DNA of 64,000 nt from Archaeoglobaceae archaeon (GTDB lineage Archaea; Halobacteriota; Archaeoglobi; Archaeoglobales; Archaeoglobaceae), in assembly GCA_038734275.1 (NCBI GenBank), contig JAVYOO010000006.1, positions 1-64,000 on the forward strand, given 5' to 3'. The notes beneath the pieces are model-generated. The model did no database searches and was not told where the DNA came from. It saw only the letters and a list, made by a program, of their open reading frames with translations. This document shows positions 525-62,953 of this stretch, piece by piece (position 1 is the stretch's first letter; every line of letters starts with the position of its first letter). The position numbers and the translations under genes were made by a program.

Positions 525-1040
525 ATGCTCTTCGAGATCACGATCTACTGCAGAGGTGGTCAGGGAGGGGTTACGACTGCAAGGCTAATTGCGACAGCTG
601 CAATGCTCAAGGGTTTGTATGCTCAGGCAATGCCCCAATTTGGCCCTGAAAGAAGGGGTGCGACGGTTAACGCTTACCTGAGAATATCAGACGAACCGAT
701 AAGGAGAAGATCATCAATAAGAAACCCCTATGGGCTTGCAGTTTTTGATAAAAAAATAAATTTAAATTCAAGCGCAAAATTGGGTATTATAAACTCTCCA
801 AATCCCATAAAGATTGCTGAAAAGACTTATTATTTAGATGCGACCCGCATCGCTGAGAACCACGAACTCGTTTATGCGGGCTGGGCTATACTAAGTGCCC
901 CTATGAGCGGGGCAATGGCAAAGGCTTTAGAAATTGAACTTTCTTATCTTGAAGAGGCGATTTACACCGAACTTGGCGAAAAAGCGGATAAGAGCTTTGA
1001 AGCTGCAAAAGAAGCTTACGAGGTGGTTCGTTGGACTTAG
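525..1040 (+). CDS. porG: 2-oxoacid:ferredoxin oxidoreductase, gamma subunit (probably pyruvate)
   Basis: 171 residues with the gamma-subunit signature near the N-terminus (GRGGQGGVTTARLIA, about residues 10-24) and the FGPERRGA segment around residue 39, both typical of PorG/VorG/KorC. It is the first gene of a four-gene cluster in the order gamma, delta, alpha, beta. The complex oxidatively decarboxylates a 2-oxoacid to an acyl-CoA and reduces ferredoxin, or runs in reverse for carbon fixation. Gene order favours pyruvate, but substrate cannot be fixed from sequence. A T-rich TATA-like element around base 497 and no clear ribosome site suggest a leaderless or short-leader message starting at ATG 525. 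Confidence 0.9.
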   Translation: MLFEITIYCRGGQGGVTTARLIATAAMLKGLYAQAMPQFGPERRGATVNAYLRISDEPIRRRSSIRNPYGLAVFDKKINLNSSAKLGIINSPNPIKIAEKTYYLDATRIAENHELVYAGWAILSAPMSGAMAKALEIELSYLEEAIYTELGEKADKSFEAAKEAYEVVRWT

Positions 1041-1270
1041 AGCCGATCATTTCGAGAATGAAGCTTGGAGCAGCAGGAGAGACTGGCACATGGAGAAATT
1101 ACAGACCCGTGATAAATAAGGAGCTATGCAATAAGTGCAAAACCTGCTTCTCATACTGCCCTGAGGGTGTAATTAGCGAGGAGATCGAGATCGATTACAG
1201 ATTCTGCAAGGGGTGTGGAATTTGCAAGGAAATGTGCAGACAAAAAGCCATAGAAATGGTTCAAGAGTAA
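1031..1270 (+). CDS. porD: 2-oxoacid:ferredoxin oxidoreductase, delta (ferredoxin-like) subunit
   Basis: 79 residues carrying two CxxCxxCxxxC clusters (CNKCKTCFSYCP and CKGCGICKEMC), so two [4Fe-4S] centres that pass electrons from the TPP site to external ferredoxin. The N-terminal GAAGETGTWR segment is the usual PorD signature. The TTG at 1031 is preferred as start because GAGGTG lies 6-7 bases upstream, inside the end of porG; the in-frame ATG at 1058 is an alternative. The gene overlaps porG by 10 bases, which suggests translational coupling. Confidence 0.9.
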   Translation: MDLEPIISRMKLGAAGETGTWRNYRPVINKELCNKCKTCFSYCPEGVISEEIEIDYRFCKGCGICKEMCRQKAIEMVQE

Positions 1271-1278
1271 GGAAGCTG

Positions 1279-2346
1279 TTGACAAGCAACGAAGCGGTTG
1301 CTGAGGCTGTGAAAATTGCAAAACCTGACGTTATTGCAGCATACCCAATTACTCCGCAGTCTCCAATTGTTGAAAGCCTTGCGAAGATGATTGCAAAAGG
1401 AGAACTTGATGCAACCTTTGTTAGGGTTGAGTCCGAGCACTCCGCAATGGCGGTAATTCATGGTGCAGCGACTGCTGGGGCGAGGGTTTTTACCGCAACT
1501 TCGAGCCATGGGCTCGCTTACATGTTCGAGATGTGCTGGTGGATTGCTGGCTCAAGGCTTCCCGCAGTTATGGCTGTTGCGACCCGCTCAATCGGAGCTC
1601 CCTGGAACATTCATGGAGACCACACAGATATAGTTCAGCTTAGGGATGCGGGCTGGATCATAGGAATGGCTGAAAATGCTCAGGAAGCATTTGACATGAC
1701 TTTGCAGGCTTTTTGCGTAAGCGAAGAGGTAAACATTCCGTTTGCTGTCGGACTCGATGCTTTCACGATGAGCCACACCGCTGAAGTTGTCGAGATCTGG
1801 GAACCGAAGATTCCTCCAAGAAGACAGGCTTACAAAGTGCTTCCATCGGACAATTTCGCTGTGAACGCAGTAACTATGGGTAAGGCGAGGATGAAGGCAA
1901 GATATGATTTAGCGGTGGATTTAGAGAACTCTGCAAAGGTTATTGAGAAGACTGACAAGGACTTCGGAAACCATGGAGGACTTGTGGAGAGCTACAGGCT
2001 TGATGATGCTGACTTTGCTGTGGTGATGATGGGGGGCTGGTGTGGAGATGCGAAGGATGCGATCGACATGCTCAGGCAAGAAGGCTTTAAGATCGGACTG
2101 CTAAGGATCAGATTTTTGAGACCATTTCCCAAAAAGGCTGTTAAAGAGCTTGGCGGTGAAGTTTTGGTTGTTGACAAAGCCAACAGTGATCTGCGAGGTG
2201 TTCTTGGAATCGAGGTTTCTTCTTGCGGAGTTGAAGCCAAGAATGTTGTTGCGGGTATTGGTGGAGTTGATGTTGGTGTTGATGACTTTTACAGGATCTT
2301 CAAGGATTTTATGAACGGTAAGCTTGAGATGGAGTGGTATCTATGA
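1279..2346 (+). CDS. porA: 2-oxoacid:ferredoxin oxidoreductase, alpha subunit
   Basis: About 355 residues. The N-terminal domain has AAYPITPQSP and the VESEHSAMAVIHGAA segment characteristic of PorA domain I; a transketolase C-terminal-like domain follows (VVDKANSDLRG near the end). The open frame runs back to 1213, but that part is out-of-phase porD sequence. The protein most plausibly begins at the TTG at 1279 (TSNEAVAEAVK), just after the porD stop; GTG 1234 is a poorer alternative. It pairs with porB to form the TPP-binding catalytic core. Confidence 0.88.
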   Translation: MTSNEAVAEAVKIAKPDVIAAYPITPQSPIVESLAKMIAKGELDATFVRVESEHSAMAVIHGAATAGARVFTATSSHGLAYMFEMCWWIAGSRLPAVMAVATRSIGAPWNIHGDHTDIVQLRDAGWIIGMAENAQEAFDMTLQAFCVSEEVNIPFAVGLDAFTMSHTAEVVEIWEPKIPPRRQAYKVLPSDNFAVNAVTMGKARMKARYDLAVDLENSAKVIEKTDKDFGNHGGLVESYRLDDADFAVVMMGGWCGDAKDAIDMLRQEGFKIGLLRIRFLRPFPKKAVKELGGEVLVVDKANSDLRGVLGIEVSSCGVEAKNVVAGIGGVDVGVDDFYRIFKDFMNGKLEMEWYL

Positions 2347-3191
2347 TCCTTCCCGGAAACACAAGCTGTCAGGGTTGTCCAATATCGCTTGCGATGAGAT
2401 GCTTGGACGAGATAGAAAATCCAGTGCTTGTAATTCCCGCTGGTTGCTCAACTGTTGTTGCTGGGCTTCATCCGAATTCAGCGATGAAAATTCCCGTGAT
2501 CCATGTTCCCTTTGCCTCAACCAACGCTGTTGCTTGCGGTGTTAAGGAAGCCTACAAAAGAGCAGGAGTGAAGGCGAACGTTATTGCATGGATCGGAGAT
2601 GGAGCTGCCGACATTGGCTTTGCCACGCTTAGCGCTTCCGCAACAAGGAAAGACGACATCATAACTGTGGTTGTTGACAACGAAGCTTATATGAACACTG
2701 GAACTCAAGCAAGCCTGAGCACTTTCTGGAAAGCTAAAACCAGCACATCCCCAGCTGGAAAAGCTGATGAGAAAAGAAATCTCGCTCTGATCATGATTGC
2801 TCACAGAGCGGATTATGTGGCAACCGCAACGGTTGGCTACATCGAAGATCTGCGAAGAAAGTTCGGAAAAGCCAGTCAGAGTGAGGGATTTAGGTTCATT
2901 CAAATCCATTGCCCATGCCCTCCGGGCTGGAGGTTTCCGAGCGAGAAAACGATCGAAATCGCAAGAAAGGCTGTGATGAGCGGAGCTTGGGCTCTCTTTG
3001 AATTCTACGATGGAAAGCTTAGGTTTTCTGGAATTGGAAAAAAGTTCGCTGAAAAGGGCAATAGGATTCCACTGGCTGAATATCTAAAGGTTCAGGGAAG
3101 ATTCGAGCATTTAGGGGATGAGGACATAGTGGCTATAGAGAGGGCGATTGATGAGGAGTGGGAGATCTTAAAGAGATTTTCAGGAGAATAA
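2343..3191 (+). CDS. porB: 2-oxoacid:ferredoxin oxidoreductase, beta (TPP-binding) subunit
   Basis: 282 residues. It shows the [4Fe-4S] ligands near the N-terminus (GNTSCQGCP, Cys 9 and 12) and the TPP/Mg motif GDGAADIG (from about residue 85), followed by DNEAYMNTGTQ, all typical of PorB. ATG 2343 overlaps the porA stop as ATGA, indicating coupled translation; the GTG at 2334 is less likely. The end of the gene overlaps no other gene, and the next gene appears to have its own promoter. Confidence 0.92.
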   Translation: MILPGNTSCQGCPISLAMRCLDEIENPVLVIPAGCSTVVAGLHPNSAMKIPVIHVPFASTNAVACGVKEAYKRAGVKANVIAWIGDGAADIGFATLSASATRKDDIITVVVDNEAYMNTGTQASLSTFWKAKTSTSPAGKADEKRNLALIMIAHRADYVATATVGYIEDLRRKFGKASQSEGFRFIQIHCPCPPGWRFPSEKTIEIARKAVMSGAWALFEFYDGKLRFSGIGKKFAEKGNRIPLAEYLKVQGRFEHLGDEDIVAIERAIDEEWEILKRFSGE

Positions 3192-3238
3192 AAAATTCTG
3201 ATAGAAAATTTTATAATCAAAAAGTTCTTTTAAATATC

Positions 3239-3568
3239 ATGGCTTGGGATCTATATATTGCGGTTTTGATGCTTGTGCTGGGAGTGATCTACGGATACAC
3301 AAGACCCGGCAAGGAGAACAGAGCGGCGATACTGAAAAAAGCACTGGTCATAGGACTCGTGGTTGGCGTTATCGCTGGACTTGCGATTAGCTTCCTGAAC
3401 CCCGAAGCCTCGTTGATTGGTGCAACCATCGGTGCAACCATTGGAATTTTGATTGTCGTGGTAGTTCTTGCAATTTTCTTCATTGTCGGAACCATAATCG
3501 GAGATGCTTTGGAGAGCAAAAAGAAAGTAGAGCAGAAGCCAGCAGAAAAGAAAGAAGAAAAGAAGTAA
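3239..3568 (+). CDS. Small membrane protein of unknown function
   Basis: 109 residues with three likely transmembrane segments (about 6-20, 36-54 and 63-90) rich in Gly, Ile and Val, and a lysine/glutamate-rich cytoplasmic tail of about 18 residues (KKKVEQKPAEKKEEKK). The frame is open further upstream into the end of porB, but ATG 3239 fits because a TATA-like TTTTATAAT lies about 28 bases upstream, suggesting a leaderless message separate from the por operon. I do not recognise the family. Confidence 0.6.
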   Translation: MAWDLYIAVLMLVLGVIYGYTRPGKENRAAILKKALVIGLVVGVIAGLAISFLNPEASLIGATIGATIGILIVVVVLAIFFIVGTIIGDALESKKKVEQKPAEKKEEKK

Positions 3569-3599
3569 CGGCTTTCTTAACTTTCTTAATTTTTATTTT

Positions 3600-4814
3600 T
3601 TAACTTAGATACCAAAACGTTATAGGCATTATCAGACACCCCATACAGTTTATTCTTCTTACGCCCAAAAATTGTGTTGAAAGCCCTATTGGAATTGCAG
3701 AAAAGAAGACTGCAAGCCCATAAAATCCCGTTAGCGCCATGATAATCGCAATAAGGAACGCAAATACTGCAATCGAAAGCTTTCTTCCGTCGATCTGATC
3801 TATCTTCTTGGCAATAAAGAAGCCAATGGAAAGTGTTGAGACGAAAGCAATCAAACCAGAGATTAAAGAAAGGACTGCTATTTCCTGAAAACTCGGGATC
3901 AAATTGAGCGATTTGAGAGCATCAGCTGAACCACTTCTCGTTCTGCCAATTGCAAGAAGCATGAAAAAGCAAAAGATGACATTTGCAGTATTTGCAGAAC
4001 TCATTGCGATTATATAACCCCTATCGCTCTTTTCTCCAAGCGACGAAACTACAGTTGCAACTCCACTGCTTATTCCCGGGAATATCGAAACAAAGAAACC
4101 CGCCAAAGAGCCTTTTATTGTCGTTGAGACTTCTGGAAAGCTAAGCTTAATTTCCTGCTTCGGGATCCCTGAGGTTTTTGTGAAGATCGAGAAAAGTAAA
4201 ACTGGTGCTCCAAAAAGACCCGTTAGCAATGGCAAAAGCACCGAGCCAGCGGGCGTGATCTCTGCAAGTTCAGAGTTTTGCAAGGCAATGTAGCCAAGCA
4301 TTCCCGAAGCTACAAAGACAGCAAGAGCGTAAAGTCTCTTTCTCCAAGCTGATAGGCTTCCTTCGAACTCTTCGCCCCTTTCACTCATAACCAAAAGCGT
4401 CGCTACACAGATTAAAACAAGTGGAGTTGCCCTTTTGAACAATTCGTAATTCAAGCCTACAAATAACGCAGTAAAAAACAGAGGAAGACTTAGGAATACT
4501 GAAAAAAGGGATGAAAAGCAAGATATCAACAATGCCTCAAATCCACGACCTTCGAGAACCATTTTGTGTGCTGGCAAAATCGCTATTGCGGTGTCCTCGC
4601 TCGGAACCCCAAGAAAAGTTGCGGGAATTATGTTCGCGATTGTGTAAGCAATCGCAGAGGTTATGATCATAGCCATAACATCTTCTGGAGAAAAATAAAG
4701 GAAAAGAAATGCTGATGCAGACACAATAAGAGCGGAAAAAGTATTGCTATGCAATCCCGGGATGATGCCAGCAATTAAACCAAGAATAACACCAGTTATA
4801 GTCCCAAGAAGCAT
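3600..4814 (-). CDS. TctA-like multipass transporter (DUF112/TctA family)
   Basis: 404 residues with about ten transmembrane helices. The N-terminal GLIAGIIPGLHSNT (about residues 12-25) and the second GxxPGISSGVA segment are the paired glycine/proline motifs of the TctA family, large subunits of tripartite tricarboxylate transporters. It is shorter than the bacterial 500-residue TctA, as archaeal stand-alone members often are. No TctB or TctC (periplasmic binding) gene is adjacent, so the transported substrate is unknown. Bicistronic transcription with a neighbour is not evident; it ends close to the previous convergent gene. Confidence 0.72.
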   Translation of the reverse strand: MLLGTITGVILGLIAGIIPGLHSNTFSALIVSASAFLFLYFSPEDVMAMIITSAIAYTIANIIPATFLGVPSEDTAIAILPAHKMVLEGRGFEALLISCFSSLFSVFLSLPLFFTALFVGLNYELFKRATPLVLICVATLLVMSERGEEFEGSLSAWRKRLYALAVFVASGMLGYIALQNSELAEITPAGSVLLPLLTGLFGAPVLLFSIFTKTSGIPKQEIKLSFPEVSTTIKGSLAGFFVSIFPGISSGVATVVSSLGEKSDRGYIIAMSSANTANVIFCFFMLLAIGRTRSGSADALKSLNLIPSFQEIAVLSLISGLIAFVSTLSIGFFIAKKIDQIDGRKLSIAVFAFLIAIIMALTGFYGLAVFFSAIPIGLSTQFLGVRRINCMGCLIMPITFWYLS

Positions 4815-24230: not shown

Positions 24231-25973
24231 ATGAGGATCTTGATCTTTCTGACTCTGCTGGCAATCGGAACCGCAACCGCAGACATAATTCCATCAATTT
24301 GCTGGAAAACCGAGCTCACAGGGCTTGTTGGAGCTACTCCGAGTTACGATAACGGTAGCATTTACGTTGCAAACTGGTATGGGTGGGGACAGTGGAATCC
24401 GGGACTTTACAAGCTGAATGCAAGCACTGGACAAATCGAGTGGAGAAACGAGAACATAAGCGGTGCGGGAAGAGCATTGGTAATTGAAGATACCGTAATC
24501 ATCGGCAATCTCTCGGGGCATCTATTCTTTGTTAACGCAACCACTGGAATAATAGAGAAATCGCTTTTGCTCGAAACTCAGCCATCTTGGTATGGCATCG
24601 CTTCCTCGCCAGTCTTTTACAATGGCACGATTTATGTTCATACCTTTTCGAATTCAACGATCTGGGCTTTAAAGCCTGACGGAAGCATTAAATGGAAATT
24701 TTCAGCAAACGTTGAAGGCAGTCCTTATGCAAGTCCATTCGCACGCGACGGAAAGATTCTATTCTCAGCAGAAAATAAAATATTTTGTTTGAACGAAAAC
24801 GGCGAACAGCTCTGGAACTTCACAGCGGAATCCAAGATCACGAATTCACCAGTTGCAACAGACGAAAATATCTTCTTTGCAACACAAAACTATCTCTACG
24901 CCCTTGATCTTGGCGGGAATTTGCTCTGGAAAACCAACTGGAACGGAAGTCTTTCAAATGCGATGCTTTTGGACTCAAAAGTTTGTATTGGTGGAAAGAA
25001 TGGATTTGCATGTTTTAATTCAACAAATGGGGAAAAATTATGGTTTTTTGAGACAGATAAGGTTGATTCCACCCCCGTTGCGCAGAATGGAAGGATATAC
25101 TTTGCAACAAATGTTCAGCAAGGAACAATCTATGCCCTCAATGCGATCGATGGAAAACTTCTATGGTTCTACCGTCTCATTCCGCCAGAAGGTAGCTACT
25201 ACAACATAATGTCCTCGCCAATAATCGCTGAAGGAAAATTGTTCATCGGCTCCGATTCTGGTTTCGTTTACTGCTTCAATTCAAGCGGAATCATCGAACT
25301 AAACGTTACTCTCTACCCAGGAAATTACACAGAAAAGATTGGTGAAAAAATTTACGAAGTTAGCAAAACCTCAGGACTTGGAGCTCTGCACTTTGCAAGT
25401 CTCGGTTCGAAGTCCAACGACGCTTACATCGGTTTCAGCTACGAACTCGACGATAGCTGGTATCAAAGCTCTGGAAGCTTTTTCGTTTCCTCGATCATGG
25501 GTCTAATGGAACTCTGGTGGACTTACTACCTAAACGACGAAAGCCCCTGGGCTGGGCTTAATCAGATTGAGCTAAGCAATGGCGACAGACTTTATCTGCT
25601 CTACGGCACTGGATTTGAGACTCCAGAGAATGCAACTACGATGATAAAGATCAACGTTGCCGTGAAATCCGCTGGAATAAAGGATATTTCAGCCTCGAAT
25701 GGGGCAAGAGGAGGGAATATAACCGCATTTGTTAACGTATCAACTGAAGAAGGCTGGTTCGTTCTTGTGCTGAGCGGACTTGGAAATGGAGATAGCATAG
25801 CTGGAGTTTCGACTTTCTACGCTAAGGGCGATCTTAGAGTTCCTGTGCTCGTGGCAATTCCGCAACAAGTCAAAACTGGAATCTACAGGCTTTATGCTGG
25901 AATATACAAGTTTGAAGACTATCCTGAAAAGCTCATAACATGGTTCGGACCCGTGGAGGTCGAAGTAAGATGA
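24231..25973 (+). CDS. Secreted PQQ-type beta-propeller protein with DUF4430-like domain
   Basis: 580 residues. Signal peptide 1-17 (ATA before DIIPSICW). Residues about 23-350 form a beta-propeller of PQQ-enzyme-like repeats (recurring YALN..G..LWFY-type blades). Residues about 355-478 look like a DUF4430 domain (ELNVTLYPGNYTE start, GLMELWWTYYLNDESPW, then IELSNGDRLYLLYGTG), and 480-580 a beta-sandwich tail. Many N-glycosylation sequons. The stop overlaps the next start as ATGA. DUF4430 belongs to the fold of the C-terminal domain of vitamin B12 carriers, and the operon ends in btuF, so surface corrinoid binding is inferred, not shown. Confidence 0.75.
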   Translation: MRILIFLTLLAIGTATADIIPSICWKTELTGLVGATPSYDNGSIYVANWYGWGQWNPGLYKLNASTGQIEWRNENISGAGRALVIEDTVIIGNLSGHLFFVNATTGIIEKSLLLETQPSWYGIASSPVFYNGTIYVHTFSNSTIWALKPDGSIKWKFSANVEGSPYASPFARDGKILFSAENKIFCLNENGEQLWNFTAESKITNSPVATDENIFFATQNYLYALDLGGNLLWKTNWNGSLSNAMLLDSKVCIGGKNGFACFNSTNGEKLWFFETDKVDSTPVAQNGRIYFATNVQQGTIYALNAIDGKLLWFYRLIPPEGSYYNIMSSPIIAEGKLFIGSDSGFVYCFNSSGIIELNVTLYPGNYTEKIGEKIYEVSKTSGLGALHFASLGSKSNDAYIGFSYELDDSWYQSSGSFFVSSIMGLMELWWTYYLNDESPWAGLNQIELSNGDRLYLLYGTGFETPENATTMIKINVAVKSAGIKDISASNGARGGNITAFVNVSTEEGWFVLVLSGLGNGDSIAGVSTFYAKGDLRVPVLVAIPQQVKTGIYRLYAGIYKFEDYPEKLITWFGPVEVEVR

Positions 25974-28618
25974 GAATTATTTTAGCTCTTCTCCTTCTCT
26001 TAACTCCTGCATTTGCATTGAGCATTCAAACGAGTGGGGACTGTGTAAACAAGGAAGTCTATATCTACACAGACCAGCCAAGCTTTCTGATTTTAAGAAT
26101 GAACTATGGAGTCCCGATTTATGCAAACTCCACTCCACAGCAACCCGCAGTCTTTATTCCAAGGATCACTGGAGACTTGCTTATTACCGCAATATCCGAT
26201 GCGGGCGAAGCAAGTAAAGTTATCAAGATCAGAGAATGTAAAGCTACCTATTTCGCCCCGACTCCCGCAATACTGCTCCCAGATGGAAGCTTTGAGGAAC
26301 AGGGCAAGAAAATAAGCTGGAGAACCGCATTTGGAGCACTAAAGAAGGCTTGTGAGAGCCTTGGGTATTCCTACTCGACGAAACTCTCTGACTGGGGGAT
26401 CTTTGTTGAATGCATTCGTGGAATTTGCACGGGAAGCCTTGGAAAAACTTCTGGATGGATGTATTGGGTTAATTACCCAAACAAACCTATACCAGGGATT
26501 TCCGCCTCGGATTACAGAATCTATCCGGGAGACGAGATAATATGGTATTTTTCGAGAAGCATGGATGAAAAACCAGACACATCGCCTTATGCCATAATAA
26601 TAAAGATTGGAACAAACTACGAACTGCAGATTAACGTGAAATGGGAGTCAAAGATCCCTCCTGTAGCGGAATTCGAATTTACCCCGTTAAATCCGATAGT
26701 CGGTGAAGAAGTTATTTTTAATGCCTCTAAGTCATACGATGACAGAGAAATAGTTCGATATCAGTGGGTAATCGAGGGAAAGGTGCTTGAAGGTAAAATT
26801 GTGGCTTATAGATTTGAGAAAGAGGGAGAATATGAAGTAAAGCTGACGGTATTTGACAATGAAGGACTTTCTGACTCGATCACCAAAATTATTAAAGTGA
26901 AGAGCGCTGAAAAGCTGGATAAGTTCATAGTCCAAGGAGAGAGAGCCCTGAACCTTGGCTACGGAGTGCTAATAATACGGGCTGAGAATGCGGAAGTAGC
27001 GATAAGAAATGAAAGCTGCCGAGTGCCACAGCATGATGTTAAAGGCTGTTTTAGTCTTGAAGCAAATGCTTCGATTTCCGCAATCTTCGAAACAACCGAA
27101 GCTTTTAAGATTCTCAATTTAAATCGAGATCGCTGGATTTTGGTTAAAAAAGATAACGGGAACTACAGCGCAAATATCTCCACTGGAAAATTTGCAATTC
27201 TGAGCCAATGGGAAAAATTCCCGCTGAAGGAAAACGATGAGAGGATAAAAAGAGCTATTGGATACCTTAAAAGCCTACAGAGAGATGATGGAGGATTTGG
27301 AGAACAAGAAAGTCTATTTTCAGCAACCTGCTGGGCGATAATGGCAATAGTTTCCGCTGGGGAGAATCCTGAGGATTGGAAAAAGAATGAGAAAAGCCCA
27401 ATGGATTACGTGAGAGAAAAAATAAAAGATGAAATTCCAAAAATGGGAACCGCAGACATAGCTCGGACTATCCTCGCATTGGTTTATGCAAACAAAGATC
27501 CAAGAAACTTTGAGGGCTACAATCTCGTTGATATGCTTAAAGAAAAAGTTAAGGACGACGGTCAGATTGGTGATTATGTTTACACAACTATCTGGGGGGC
27601 TTTGGCGTTAAAGGCTGTTGGAGAAGACATCTCGAGATCCGTAGAATGGTTGAAGTCGGCTCAAAATCCAGATGGTGGATTTCCGTGGATCGCTGGAGAA
27701 CTGAGCGACTGCGATGACACTTCAGCAGCTATACAGGTTTTGATGCTTGCAAAGGATTATAGAGCGGTTAGCAAAGCCATCGAATATCTGAAAACCTGTC
27801 AGAACCCAGACGGCGGAATGAGATACTTTGGAGAGTCCGCAAGCAACTCTGCAAGCGATTCATGGGCTATTCAGGCTCTTGTTTCCGCTGGAGAGAATCC
27901 GATGGAGTTCAAAAGGAATTCGATAAGCGTTGTTGATCATCTGCTCAGCCTTCAAACCGCAGAAGGTTATTTCAAATACACAAGCTACGAAACTTCGAAC
28001 CCGGGCTATATGACAACTTCAGCAATCATGGCATTACTTGGCAAATACCATCCGATAAAAATTCTGCCAGTTTACAGCACAAATGTTATCGCTGTTGGCA
28101 ATGAGACGAAAATATGTTTGCCAATGGATCTTTTCCTTCAAATTTACGTGGATGAGATAACAATCTATACCGCAGAAGGCAAAAACTTAACTGTAAAGAT
28201 AGAAAAGCTCAGAGAAATCCCAGAGACCTTGAAGCTCGAGAATGCGATAGCATACTTCTCAATAAACGTAGAGCCAAAGAACTTAAGTGGATACATAACA
28301 TTCTTTGTCCCTAAAGACGCTAAAGAGAATTTTGTATTGGCAAAGTTTGAAGCTGGAGAATGGAGAAAGCTGAAAACCGAACTTTTGGGCTCCGATGAAA
28401 ATTACAGATATTATAGAGCATTTACCCATGGCTTCAGCTACTTTGCAATTGTCAAGGAATTCGAAGAAAAGCTTCCAGAAATTGAAAAAACAACACCAAA
28501 AGTTGAAACAACAATCACAACCCCCACGGTTGCAGAGAAGCCAAAGTCCACTCCGGGCTTTGAGCTGACTTTCGCAATCCTCGCGATTGCCTTGGTTTTC
28601 TTAAGGCTGAGAAAATGA
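25970..28618 (+). CDS. S-layer-anchored transcobalamin-like protein (DUF4430, PKD, alpha/alpha-toroid, PGF-CTERM)
   Basis: 882 residues. Signal peptide 1-16. DUF4430-like beta domain about 100-198 (SGWMYWVNYPNKP, YPGDEIIWYF). PKD domain 231-311. Prenyltransferase/squalene-oxidase-type repeats 422-693 with four QxxDGGF-like units (LQRDDGGFG, AQNPDGGFP, CQNPDGGMR, LQTAEGYF), forming an alpha/alpha barrel. Then a PGF-pre-PGF-like domain (FTHGFSYFAIV), a Thr-rich spacer and the PGF-CTERM tail (STPGFELTF, hydrophobic helix, RLRK) processed by archaeosortase. An alpha/alpha barrel plus a DUF4430-type domain is the plan of transcobalamin and intrinsic factor, though domain order differs. Overlaps btuF by ATGA. 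Confidence 0.8.
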   Translation: MRIILALLLLLTPAFALSIQTSGDCVNKEVYIYTDQPSFLILRMNYGVPIYANSTPQQPAVFIPRITGDLLITAISDAGEASKVIKIRECKATYFAPTPAILLPDGSFEEQGKKISWRTAFGALKKACESLGYSYSTKLSDWGIFVECIRGICTGSLGKTSGWMYWVNYPNKPIPGISASDYRIYPGDEIIWYFSRSMDEKPDTSPYAIIIKIGTNYELQINVKWESKIPPVAEFEFTPLNPIVGEEVIFNASKSYDDREIVRYQWVIEGKVLEGKIVAYRFEKEGEYEVKLTVFDNEGLSDSITKIIKVKSAEKLDKFIVQGERALNLGYGVLIIRAENAEVAIRNESCRVPQHDVKGCFSLEANASISAIFETTEAFKILNLNRDRWILVKKDNGNYSANISTGKFAILSQWEKFPLKENDERIKRAIGYLKSLQRDDGGFGEQESLFSATCWAIMAIVSAGENPEDWKKNEKSPMDYVREKIKDEIPKMGTADIARTILALVYANKDPRNFEGYNLVDMLKEKVKDDGQIGDYVYTTIWGALALKAVGEDISRSVEWLKSAQNPDGGFPWIAGELSDCDDTSAAIQVLMLAKDYRAVSKAIEYLKTCQNPDGGMRYFGESASNSASDSWAIQALVSAGENPMEFKRNSISVVDHLLSLQTAEGYFKYTSYETSNPGYMTTSAIMALLGKYHPIKILPVYSTNVIAVGNETKICLPMDLFLQIYVDEITIYTAEGKNLTVKIEKLREIPETLKLENAIAYFSINVEPKNLSGYITFFVPKDAKENFVLAKFEAGEWRKLKTELLGSDENYRYYRAFTHGFSYFAIVKEFEEKLPEIEKTTPKVETTITTPTVAEKPKSTPGFELTFAILAIALVFLRLRK

Positions 28619-29547
28619 AAAAAATATTTGCTTTCATTCTTTTAATTTGCTTAACGGCAATCTTCTGCGTTCAAACTGAACACTCAACAATTCCCAAAAC
28701 TGAAGAAAAATTCGAATCTGGGTTTGCTTTCAATTTATCTATTGACGATACTGGTTATTCGATAACCGCAGGGAATCCGCAGAGAATTGTCTCGCTTTCT
28801 CCAAGCAACACCGAGATACTTTTTGCCATAGGAGCTGGGGATAGAGTGGTTGGAGTCACAGACTACTGCAATTATCCGCCTGAAGTTGCTGAATTGGTTG
28901 CAAAAGGCAAAATTCAGAGAATTGGCGGATATTCAACTGTAAACGTGGAGAGAATTATTTCCTTAAAGCCAGATCTCGTCATAGCTTCCTATGGCAATGG
29001 ATTGGCGACAATAGAAGTGCTTCGAAAATACACAAAAGTAATCGCATTCGATCCGAAGGACATAAGGGGAATTGAAAGATCTATTCTCGCAATTGGCGTT
29101 GCCACGGGAAATTACGAAAATGCGGAAAAGATTGTTTCAGAGATGGAAAAGAGAATCTCAGAGATAAAAGCAAGGGAGAAAAGCTACAAAAGGGTTGCAC
29201 ATATTGTCTGGAACGATCCGATATGGGTAAGCGGAAAGGAGACTTTCATCGACGAAGCAATTACGATCGCAGGCGGTATCAACGTTTTTAACTTCTCAGG
29301 CTGGAGAATCGTGAGCGTTGAGGACTTGATCAGAGCGAATCCTGAAGTCATAATAGTCAGCAGTGGTAGCGGGATGAGTGGTGGAAGAGATGTCGTTTAC
29401 GAGTGGGTGATGAGTGACAAGAGATTAAAAAACGTTGAAGCTGTTAAAAATGGAAAAGTGTTTGTTATCGACGCAGACATAATTTCCCGCCCCGGTCCAA
29501 GAATTGTTGATGCTTTAGAACAGATTTACCAGCTCCTCAATTCCTGA
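28615..29547 (+). CDS. btuF: BtuF-like cobalamin-binding protein of an ABC transporter
   Basis: 310 residues. A hydrophobic N-terminal segment ends at a cysteine (TAIFC, a weak lipobox), then a type III periplasmic-binding fold: PQRIVSLSPSNTEILFAIGAG, DYCNYPPEV, IASYGNG, and IDEAITIAGGINVF, typical of BtuF. It delivers corrinoid to BtuCD in the membrane. The start overlaps the previous stop (ATGA), so it is translated from the same operon as two surface proteins. The likely partners BtuC, BtuD and CbiZ are at 60272-62953. Confidence 0.88.
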   Translation: MKKIFAFILLICLTAIFCVQTEHSTIPKTEEKFESGFAFNLSIDDTGYSITAGNPQRIVSLSPSNTEILFAIGAGDRVVGVTDYCNYPPEVAELVAKGKIQRIGGYSTVNVERIISLKPDLVIASYGNGLATIEVLRKYTKVIAFDPKDIRGIERSILAIGVATGNYENAEKIVSEMEKRISEIKAREKSYKRVAHIVWNDPIWVSGKETFIDEAITIAGGINVFNFSGWRIVSVEDLIRANPEVIIVSSGSGMSGGRDVVYEWVMSDKRLKNVEAVKNGKVFVIDADIISRPGPRIVDALEQIYQLLNS

Positions 29548-60271: not shown

Positions 60272-61231
60272 GTGAAAATTCCCCTGCTAATCGCTTTGAA
60301 CTTACTCGTCCTTTTCACTTCTCTCAGCATAGGTAGCGCTCATTACGGATTCGGCGAACTTTTGGAAGTTATTCGAGGCACAGCAGATGAGACCGCGAAG
60401 GCGATAATACTCGACTACAGATTGCCAAGAGTTCTGCTTGCAATGATCGTTGGCGCATCGCTGTCCGCTTCAGGATGCTCACTTCAGGCTTTGTTCAGAA
60501 ATCCGCTTGCGGAACCTTACGTTCTTGGGATAGCAAGTGGTGCAAGCCTTGGTGCGATTTTATCGGTTGTTTTTGGGCTTAACGTGTTCGGGAGAATTAT
60601 GCTCGCCTTTGTGTCAGCAATCCTTACCGCATACCTGGTATTCTTCATCGGAAACACAAAGAAGTTCAGAGATCAGAGCTATGCAATACTACTCGCTGGA
60701 ATCGCTATAGCTTCTTTTCTTTCAGGAATTAACTCCCTTCTTATTTATCTGCACTCTCAAAGTCTTCATCAAGTAGTGTTCTGGCTTATGGGAAGCTTTT
60801 CAAATCCACAGTGGGAAGAGATTTACTTCTGCCTTCCCTTTTTGCTCATTGGAATCTCTTTTCTGCTTGCAACCTCCTGGAATCTGAACGCATTGCTTTT
60901 GGGCGATGAACATGCAAGAGCTGTGGGAATCAACGTGGACAGATACAGATCAGAGCTCATACTGTTCACCTCACTGCTAACATCCACAGCGGTAGCGGTT
61001 AGCGGTGTTATCGGATTCGTTGGAATAATAATTCCACACACAGTCAGAATTTTGATTGGAGAAGAGCACAGAAAGCTTTTGCCTGCAACTATACTGCTCG
61101 CAACAGCATTCATGCCCCTTGTAGATATATTTGCAAGAATTTCAACAAGCGGGGAAATTCCAGTTGGAGCTATTACTGCAATGCTTGGCGGACCCTTCTT
61201 CTTATACTTGCTTCTAAGGAGAGGGCTATGA
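60272..61231 (+). CDS. btuC: Cobalamin-type ABC transporter permease
   Basis: 319 residues with about ten transmembrane helices of the FecCD/BtuC family (GASLSASGCSLQALFRNPLAEP, and GVIGFVGIIIPH near the end). GTG 60272 is the start; no ribosome site, and CTTATTATACG about 25 bases upstream suggests a leaderless message. Overlaps btuD by ATGA. Partner of the BtuF protein at 28615. Confidence 0.9.
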   Translation: MKIPLLIALNLLVLFTSLSIGSAHYGFGELLEVIRGTADETAKAIILDYRLPRVLLAMIVGASLSASGCSLQALFRNPLAEPYVLGIASGASLGAILSVVFGLNVFGRIMLAFVSAILTAYLVFFIGNTKKFRDQSYAILLAGIAIASFLSGINSLLIYLHSQSLHQVVFWLMGSFSNPQWEEIYFCLPFLLIGISFLLATSWNLNALLLGDEHARAVGINVDRYRSELILFTSLLTSTAVAVSGVIGFVGIIIPHTVRILIGEEHRKLLPATILLATAFMPLVDIFARISTSGEIPVGAITAMLGGPFFLYLLLRRGL

Positions 61232-62421
61232 GGCTAAAAATCGAGGGTCTAACTGTAAAGCTCGGAAGTTCTGAAGTTCTCAAGGATATCACTGTAGAGG
61301 CAAATGAAGGTGACTTCATCGCTTTACTTGGTCCCAATGGCAGTGGAAAGTCCACTCTGCTGAGAACCATCTTTGGAGTGATCAAGCCAATGAAAGGCGT
61401 TGTATTTTTCGATGGAAAAGAGCAAGAAATGGGTTATCTTCCACAGGATAGTGCTGATACAAACCTGAAGGCAATAGAAGTCGTCCTTCTTGGCAGAACA
61501 CCATATCTGGGCAGAATAAAGATCCCGAAGGAAAAAGATTATGAGATTGCCTTAAAGGCTCTTAAGGACGTTGGCATCGAAAACCTTGCTGAAAGAAGGT
61601 TCTCTGAGCTCAGCGGTGGTGAGAAACAAAAGGTTCTTTTGGCAAGACTTTTCGCTCAGGAACCGAAGGTTCTTCTGCTCGATGAACCCACCGCCCATCT
61701 CGACATTTCTTCACAACTCGAGATTATGAGAATCATAAAGGAGCTTTCGAGAGACAGAATTGCCATTGTAGCCCTCCACGACATAAACCTTGCCCTATCA
61801 TTTGCAAACCGCATATTTATGATAAAAAGCGGTAAAGTAATTTACGCGGGAAATCCGAGAGAAGTAATTACTGAAGATAGCATAAGGGACATCTTCGGAA
61901 TTGAAGTAAGCGTAAGAAGACATGGGCAGATCTACGTTATTCCAAAGGTAAAGTCAAGCAGAAATGGTAAAAAAGTCCATTTGATCTGTGGTGGTGGAAG
62001 CGGAAGCGATATTATCCATTTGCTTAACATAAACGGATTTTCTGTTTCAGCTGGTGTTCTAAACGCTCTTGACTCCGATTGGGACACAATTTCGGAACTT
62101 GGGGGAGAAATAATTGATGCCCCGCCCTTCTCTGAGATAAGCGATGAAGCTTTTTACAGAAATTTGGAAGCTATAAAGAAAGCAGATGCAGTTGTTTTGG
62201 CAAATCTTAGTATAGGCAAGGGTAACTTTAAAAATCTGCTGTCCGCAAAGTTTGCAGGCGAACTTGGCAAGCTGATCGTTGTGCACAAGAGCGATTTCAA
62301 AGAAAGAAACTTCGCTGGTGAAGAAGCGGAAAAAATTTACTCAGAAATTCTAAAGAAGGCAATTGTTGTCAAAAATGAGGAGGAAGTTCTGAATGCCATA
62401 CAAAAACTACTATCTCGATGA
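61228..62421 (+). CDS. btuD: Cobalamin-type ABC transporter ATPase with fused C-terminal Rossmann-like domain
   Basis: 397 residues. ABC domain 1-245: Walker A GPNGSGKST, signature LSGGEKQ, Walker B LLLDEP. Residues 255-397 (VHLICGGGSGSDIIHLL, VVLANLSIGKGN) form an extra nucleotide-binding-like domain, as in the archaeal (haloarchaeal) BtuD. Overlaps cbiZ by 29 bases. Confidence 0.9.
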   Translation: MRLKIEGLTVKLGSSEVLKDITVEANEGDFIALLGPNGSGKSTLLRTIFGVIKPMKGVVFFDGKEQEMGYLPQDSADTNLKAIEVVLLGRTPYLGRIKIPKEKDYEIALKALKDVGIENLAERRFSELSGGEKQKVLLARLFAQEPKVLLLDEPTAHLDISSQLEIMRIIKELSRDRIAIVALHDINLALSFANRIFMIKSGKVIYAGNPREVITEDSIRDIFGIEVSVRRHGQIYVIPKVKSSRNGKKVHLICGGGSGSDIIHLLNINGFSVSAGVLNALDSDWDTISELGGEIIDAPPFSEISDEAFYRNLEAIKKADAVVLANLSIGKGNFKNLLSAKFAGELGKLIVVHKSDFKERNFAGEEAEKIYSEILKKAIVVKNEEEVLNAIQKLLSR

Positions 62422-62953
62422 TACAACTCTCATAGTCCACGGAAATTTCTTCGGCGTGAGCACGGGGCTTCTTGGTGGGTGGAAGAGCGTTAAATCTGCG
62501 TTTAATCACACTGTCAGCGACGAATTCTACAAAATGGACCCTGTTGATTATTTAAAGCTTGTAGCGAAAAAATACGGGCTAAAAAGCTATTTTGGTCTTT
62601 TAACCGCAGTATCAATGAAAAATCTGAGCATTAAAAGCCATGGTAGTGTCACAGCCTTTGTTACCGCGGGAGTGGATAATCCAAACGATATGACAATTAA
62701 CATAATCCTCGTGCTTGAGGCGAAGGTGAGCAAAGCGGGATTGCTGAACGCCATTATTACGGCAACTGAGGCAAAGAGTAAAGCTTTATTTGAGCTTGGC
62801 TACAAATTCACAGGCACCACTACTGACGCGGTCGTCGTGCTGAGCACGATGAATGGAAAATACGAGAGATTTACGGGTCCAGCAACCTTTCTCGGGAAGG
62901 CAATCTGGAAATGCGTTTCGCATGCAGTGAAGGAAAGCCTTGAAAAGGGATGA
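62393..62953 (+). CDS. cbiZ: Adenosylcobinamide amidohydrolase CbiZ
   Basis: 186 residues. HGNFFGVSTGLLGGWK, FVTAGVDNP and the C-terminal TDAVVVLS segment match CbiZ. It removes the aminopropanol arm from adenosylcobinamide to give adenosylcobyric acid, allowing salvage of incomplete corrinoids. GAGGAGG precedes ATG 62393 inside btuD. Third gene of btuC-btuD-cbiZ. Confidence 0.93.
   Translation: MPYKNYYLDDTTLIVHGNFFGVSTGLLGGWKSVKSAFNHTVSDEFYKMDPVDYLKLVAKKYGLKSYFGLLTAVSMKNLSIKSHGSVTAFVTAGVDNPNDMTINIILVLEAKVSKAGLLNAIITATEAKSKALFELGYKFTGTTTDAVVVLSTMNGKYERFTGPATFLGKAIWKCVSHAVKESLEKG

Follow-up and report, generated by a model that had tools for sequence, protein, structure and literature searches.

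A candidate surface capture stage for corrinoids encoded beside btuF in an Archaeoglobaceae archaeon

We propose that two adjacent genes of a heat-loving Archaeoglobaceae archaeon, g1 and g2, encode a surface system that captures corrinoids and is coupled to BtuCDF and CbiZ. We consider this the best explanation and a likely one, although it is inferred and rests on no binding data. Computation has shown that the parts exist and that their linkage is conserved, that the domains are homologous and retain contact residues, that the toroid is fused with BtuF in some loci, and that relatives have this operon with the surface pair missing. If the proposal is true, the archaeal cell surface carries a dedicated corrinoid capture stage that uses the B12-carrying domain of animals and is wired to BtuCDF, unlike the ECF importer of the bacterial relatives.

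Gene layout and conserved neighbourhood

The genes g1, g2 and g3 lie in the 64,000-nucleotide stretch of DNA that we analysed (the window; Table 1), with ATGA overlaps at 25970 (g1/g2) and 28615 (g2/g3). The first-pass annotation had described three ATGA-overlapping genes with these domains and had placed a transporter and CbiZ at 60272-62953, and both statements held, the former by open reading frames, Pfam and NCBIfam and the latter by Pfam (FecCD, ABC ATPase and CbiZ). It had also made its reading depend on a conserved neighbourhood, and conservation of the neighbourhood proved strong: the surface pair sits between cbiZ and btuF, and methanogens have the toroid fused to BtuF. DUF4430 occurs in only two places of the 1.73 Mb source genome, which are g1 and g2. 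An Rfam search of the window did not find a cobalamin riboswitch, and a sigma-70 promoter scan was disregarded as having no meaning for archaea.

Table 1. Positions of the genes, domains and motifs discussed in the text
Feature	Positions	Strand	Details
g1	24231..25973	+	Secreted, predicted 8-bladed BamB/PQQ-like propeller, DUF4430, C-terminal beta region
DUF4430 core of g1	25467..25604	+	32.0 bits
g2	25970..28618	+	Surface-anchored; beta domain at the N-terminus, then DUF4430, PKD, a further beta domain, the alpha/alpha toroid, a second pre-PGF domain and a PGF-CTERM-like tail
DUF4430 of g2	26324..26554	+	aa 119-195; 32.5 bits vs cut-off 23.8
Codons W142-G-I-F145 of g2	26393..26404	+	Aligned with haptocorrin W382 and Y385
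PKD domain of g2 (PKD_4)	26657..26899	+	aa 230-310, Pfam
Alpha/alpha toroid of g2	27197..28069	+	aa 410-700; Pfam SQHop_cyclase_C/Prenyltrans at about aa 397-692; pLDDT about 90
SDCDDT motif of g2 toroid	27704..27721	+	aa 579-584
PGF-CTERM-like anchor of g2	28544..28615	+	TPGF, hydrophobic stretch and basic tail, by eye
g3	28615..29547	+	BtuF-like binding protein (Peripla_BP_2)
BtuC-like permease (FecCD)	60272..61231	+	Pfam 314.7 bits
BtuD-like ATPase	61228..62421	+	ABC ATPase; C-terminal extension of ~155 aa without Pfam match
CbiZ, adenosylcobinamide amidohydrolase	62393..62953	+	Pfam 144.2 bits vs cut-off 27

Among 60 relatives searched, some part of g2 was matched in 43, and 20 neighbourhoods were read. 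The trio arrangement is found again in about 20 genomes, within the family and outside it, and a scan of species genomes yielded 69 loci, of which the 44 archaeal ones represent the arrangement; given this recurrence in relatives and archaeal loci, it is far beyond chance. In seven relatives (L036, L039, L040, L041, L042, L045 and L052) the order btuC-btuD-cbiZ-g1-g2-btuF forms one run, a cassette found again when the search was started from CbiZ, and in another (L034) btuC and btuD are divergent and stand beside the trio. The CbiZ-centred search also returned three relatives (L135, L143 and L146) with btuC-btuD-cbiZ-btuF and no surface genes. Because the same operon exists with and without g1-g2, we regard the two surface genes as a removable insertion at a single site of a corrinoid-salvage operon. 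In L049 (genome G030) the cluster is adjoined by CbiB, CobS, an NTP_transf_3 (CobY-like) gene and a CbiZ homologue.

BtuF adjoins the toroid gene in 40 of the 44 archaeal loci and CbiZ does so in 9. Two of the four loci without an adjacent BtuF run off their contigs (L054 and L095), and two are real exceptions (L058 and L065). Nine Methanomicrobiales loci (L082, L085-L091 and L096) encode toroid and BtuF in a single open frame, with DUF4430 repeats carried by the propeller protein or by a separate protein; Pfam finds both toroid and BtuF domains in the L087 fusion, and L050 holds a further toroid-BtuF fusion. At L081, L083 and L084 (Methanosarcinales/Methanophagales-type) the toroid is a gene of its own directly before BtuF. 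These fusions and split genes indicate that what constantly accompanies the toroid is BtuF and not DUF4430 on the same chain. Since toroid and DUF4430 are found on different polypeptides in several archaea, a sandwich of the two, if there is any, need not be intramolecular; for split human transcobalamin, an association that depends on the corrinoid is described (PMC5599065).

Several loci deserve a separate description. At L058 a radical SAM/BATS-domain protein, identified by way of L035 on that contig, follows g1-g2 in place of btuF. L065, from Candidatus Mnemosynella biddleae (genome G038), keeps g1-g2 with no adjacent btuF; this genome, which is 100% complete, has no matches to CbiC, CobS or CbiZ, and has FecCD and Peripla_BP_2 pairs elsewhere. 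L094 is a euryarchaeal-type toroid and BtuF cluster on a contig binned as Nitrosotalea (Thaumarchaeota), and is probably misbinned. The bacterial toroid loci (L097-L106 and L118) are mostly near ECF-type double-ATPase genes and lack BtuF, in agreement with Burroughs et al. 2007 (PMC1796856); one of them, L104, encodes an Anaerolineae protein (943-3696) with three toroid domains in tandem beside an ECF-type double ATPase.

Domains of the two surface proteins

Both surface proteins match PF14478, the transcobalamin-like SLBB clade, above the Pfam cut-off; the g1 domain covers about aa 360-478 (Pfam 27.1 bits against a cut-off of 23.8). Searched against all PDB sequences, the DUF4430 profile matched haptocorrin 4kki first (6.8e-7), followed by intrinsic factor and transcobalamin-2. 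Haptocorrin W382 and Y385 contact the corrinoid (PMC3331988, PMC4350170), and the archaeal DUF4430 domains carry an aromatic residue at the Trp382 site in 45 of 45 cases and at the Tyr385 site in 43 of 45. DUF4430 is thus homologous, by profile and at the residue level, to the C-terminal B12-contacting beta domain of haptocorrin, intrinsic factor and transcobalamin. Haptocorrin, which has both W382 and Y385, binds base-less corrinoids. The aromatics at both sites suggest a broad recognition that includes base-less cobinamide, an inference for which there are no binding data.

The remainder of g1 is a PQQ_2/BamB-like propeller in Pfam (1.8e-30, about aa 22-353). Its AlphaFold2 model (pLDDT 92.8, pTM 0.88) matched BamB and the designed 8-blade Cake8 in a fold search (TM 0.89 of target), and the model predicts an 8-bladed BamB-like propeller with high confidence. 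We also considered g1 as a BtuG and rejected this assignment; the top 50 fold matches are of the BamB/8-blade type, with BtuG absent among them.

In sequence, the toroid of g2 stands nearer to squalene-hopene and diterpene cyclases than it does to the alpha domain of transcobalamin. Squalene-hopene cyclase and drimenyl diphosphate synthase are the solved structures most closely related to it, and toroid profiles searched against the PDB matched cyclases, with no transcobalamin at E<=1 or among the 60 best at E<=10, so that alpha-domain contacts could not be mapped. The g2 model (pLDDT 81.9, pTM 0.60) predicts the single domains well and leaves their placement uncertain. In the full-length fold search, multi-domain matches to alpha-2-macroglobulin and complement at TM about 0.2 swamp the list; meaning attaches only to the matches of the toroid with cyclases (TM 0.56-0.62 of target), and no transcobalamin is in the top 50 matches. 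The first-pass annotation had related DUF4430 to the C-terminal domain of transcobalamin and intrinsic factor, which held at profile and residue level, and had likened its pairing with an alpha/alpha barrel to the animal carriers, which held in part, the toroid sequence being nearer to cyclases. The structure prediction it had named as a check gave confident domains and, at this pTM, no certain arrangement between them.

The SDCDDT motif of the toroid aligns with SDVDDT of drimenyl diphosphate synthase 7xq4. SDxDDT is the most conserved stretch of the toroid, kept in all archaeal toroids of our alignment and in 2/3 Bacillota toroids, and absent from the Chloroflexota and Actinomycetota toroids of the same alignment. 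It could be left over from an ancestral function, cap a helix, contact the corrin or serve as a catalytic acid. In the toroid tree a branch sets the archaeal rows apart from the others, but its support is weak (54/40).

The C-terminus of g2, STPGFELTFAILAIALVFLRLRK, has the PGF-CTERM form as judged by eye, and the NCBIfam model PGF_pre_PGF matches above its cut-off (37.5 against 28) just ahead of the anchor. This pre-PGF beta domain (aa 699-830, 28064-28459) is C-terminal to the toroid. In most relatives its counterpart precedes the toroid, where g2 keeps just a reduced copy; given this difference in position, the domain seems to have been duplicated or moved in g2.

Importer genes, proposed route and rival explanations

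By Pfam, g3 is a Peripla_BP_2 protein (4.5e-38). Its solved relatives include the vitamin B12-binding protein 5ysc (1.3e-28) and E. coli BtuF 1n2z (2.9e-22), and its top solved-structure match is an iron-binding protein whose score nearly equals that of 5ysc. Against the NCBIfam BtuF equivalog g3 scores 112.8 bits, below the cut-off of 234, and the heme and F420-0 models match more weakly than the BtuF model. E. coli BtuF contacts the corrinoid through the aromatic residues Y50, W66, W85, F162, F168 and W196 (PMC5269720). Four of these six sites are aromatic in g3 (Y84, Y106, W204 and W230, at Y50, W66, F168 and W196), and at the other two an aromatic is at a neighbouring position. The four are conserved across 43 homologues, and paralogues from the same genome keep at most three.

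The best NCBIfam model for the permease is haloarchaeal BtuC (279 bits, below the cut-off of 461), and the ATPase scores best, at 246 bits against a cut-off of 537 that it does not reach, with the model 'corrinoid ABC transporter ATPase'. The ATPase extension lies at 61948-62418; most relatives share this 397-407 aa form, and the L062 and L070 ATPases are short (254-271 aa). The source genome has only one CbiZ, which is that of the window. Next to each of the two other full FecCD permeases of this genome lies a separate binding protein, which leaves g3 for the 60272 permease. In the source genome 31 kb separate the transporter and the trio, and the case for their coupling there rests on the relatives.

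CbiC and CobS are present in the source genome and most relatives. The source genome therefore probably makes cobamides and has no strict need for uptake, which in these genomes would supplement synthesis. Auxotrophy as the reason for uptake was accordingly rejected for the source genome; it holds for some relatives. Surface genes without CbiC were found in G016, G030, G038, G039 and G043, and in G043 (98% complete) the sole FecCD and the sole Peripla_BP_2 matches are those of the cluster, a case that speaks for corrinoid as the ligand. CbiZ salvages cobinamide in archaea (PMC3541065), which fits a capture of mixed corrinoids.

In the route that we propose, archaeal corrinoid salvage would begin at the cell surface with capture by g1 and g2, whose DUF4430 domains would bind corrinoids outside the cell. 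The toroid, anchored through PGF or, in methanogens, fused to BtuF, would close over or receive the corrinoid and pass it to g3, which would deliver it to BtuCD (60272-62421). CbiZ (62393-62953) would then turn adenosylcobinamide into cobyric acid, which could be fed back into the making of cobamides. That surface proteins capture a corrinoid for BtuCDF had already been claimed in the first-pass annotation; comparative genomics supports it, while binding and a joint pocket are inferred. The corrinoid as ligand, the broad specificity, the order of hand-over, the role of the toroid and the sandwich of toroid and DUF4430 are likewise inferred. Against corrinoid capture stand the scores of BtuC, BtuD and g3 below their NCBIfam equivalog cut-offs, the cyclase-like toroid with no transcobalamin among the top fold matches of g2, the presence of CbiC and CobS, the distance of the transporter from the trio, the lack of a cobalamin riboswitch in the window, and the two loci, L058 and L065, without adjacent btuF.

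A referee may ask whether another tetrapyrrole or metal complex (heme, a siderophore or an F430-like compound) is captured, with the linkage to CbiZ and BtuCD being secondary. Peripla_BP_2/FecCD systems are hard to separate by sequence (PMC2667541) and the heme and F420-0 models do match g3, if less well than BtuF does. Moreover, Burroughs et al. 2007 (PMC1796856) reasoned that, because archaea make B12, the archaeal proteins may scavenge a distinct metabolite, and the source genome has CbiC and CobS. We nevertheless think such a ligand unlikely: in many genomes CbiZ separates btuD from g1, the same operon exists without the pair in relatives, G030 has CbiB, CobS and CobY-like neighbours, and contact aromatics are retained in DUF4430 and in BtuF (4/6 in g3). 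Still less probable is that g1 and g2 are structural S-layer or adhesion proteins co-transcribed with btuF by happenstance. Propellers, PKD domains and PGF-CTERM are common among archaeal surface proteins, but the linkage spans several archaeal orders, split genes and fusions keep the toroid with BtuF, and the bacterial relatives adjoin another vitamin-type importer (PMC1796856).

The toroid might instead be an enzyme, with the SDxDDT (DxDD) motif as a general acid acting on a ligand or lipid and not only holding the ligand. The DxDD motif of class II terpene cyclases is present, and the nearest solved relatives are cyclases. This too we judge improbable, since the toroid is extracellular and BtuF-fused, sits in a salvage operon and has no known substrate, and the motif may serve merely as a helix cap or as a binding site for corrin amides; the sequence by itself does not decide this. 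A bolder version of corrinoid capture would have a surface receptor, made of haptocorrin-type beta domains and a cyclase-derived toroid, working with BtuF, sometimes as one polypeptide, with the DxDD acid acting on the corrinoid; for example, it might protonate the lower base, so that a base-off corrinoid would be handed to BtuF and CbiZ. We regard this as doubtful and retain capture for BtuCDF and CbiZ as the preferred reading.

Relation to known systems

A role in B12 capture is not new for this family, and the corresponding idea of the first-pass annotation was predated by Burroughs et al. 2007 (PMC1796856). These authors defined the superfamily, predicted B12 scavenging for the bacterial relatives with ECF-type importers, and already listed Archaeoglobus and propeller architectures. 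In the open-access literature that we searched, which includes few subscription journals, archaeal transcobalamin-like or toroid B12 systems appear only in that paper; later work may exist. Our proposal addresses its question of 2007, namely what the archaeal DUF4430 proteins bind, and would mean that archaea with genes for making cobamides also have machinery for scavenging corrinoids. The residues W142, F145, W163 and D580/D582/D583, together with the natural toroid-BtuF fusion, are testable handles.

The SLBB (DUF4430) proteins of Burroughs 2007 are likewise secreted, combine DUF4430 with a toroid or propeller and often occur as two paralogues per operon by an importer, which is of the ECF/CbiO-CbiQ type there, whereas the archaeal importer is BtuCDF with CbiZ and with toroid-BtuF fusions. 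BtuG/BtuB of Bacteroides (PMC6143338) resembles g1 in being a surface propeller tied to B12 import genes; BtuG, however, is 7-bladed, lacks DUF4430 and a toroid and feeds an outer-membrane channel, while g1 is BamB-like and predicted to be 8-bladed. Squalene-hopene and class II diterpene cyclases share with the g2 toroid the fold, QW-like repeats and the DxDD motif, but g2 is secreted, has only one toroid and is encoded in an uptake operon, and there is no evidence of cyclase activity. Animal haptocorrin, intrinsic factor and transcobalamin have the homologous beta domain, both key aromatics and an alpha/alpha toroid as well; in g2 the domain order is reversed, PKD stands in between and the toroid is nearer to cyclases, and the archaeal proteins are anchored to the cell and have an ABC importer as their partner. 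The closest operon is that of archaeal BtuCDF and CbiZ salvage, which has the same importer and amidohydrolase genes and differs by the two additional surface-protein genes between cbiZ and btuF.
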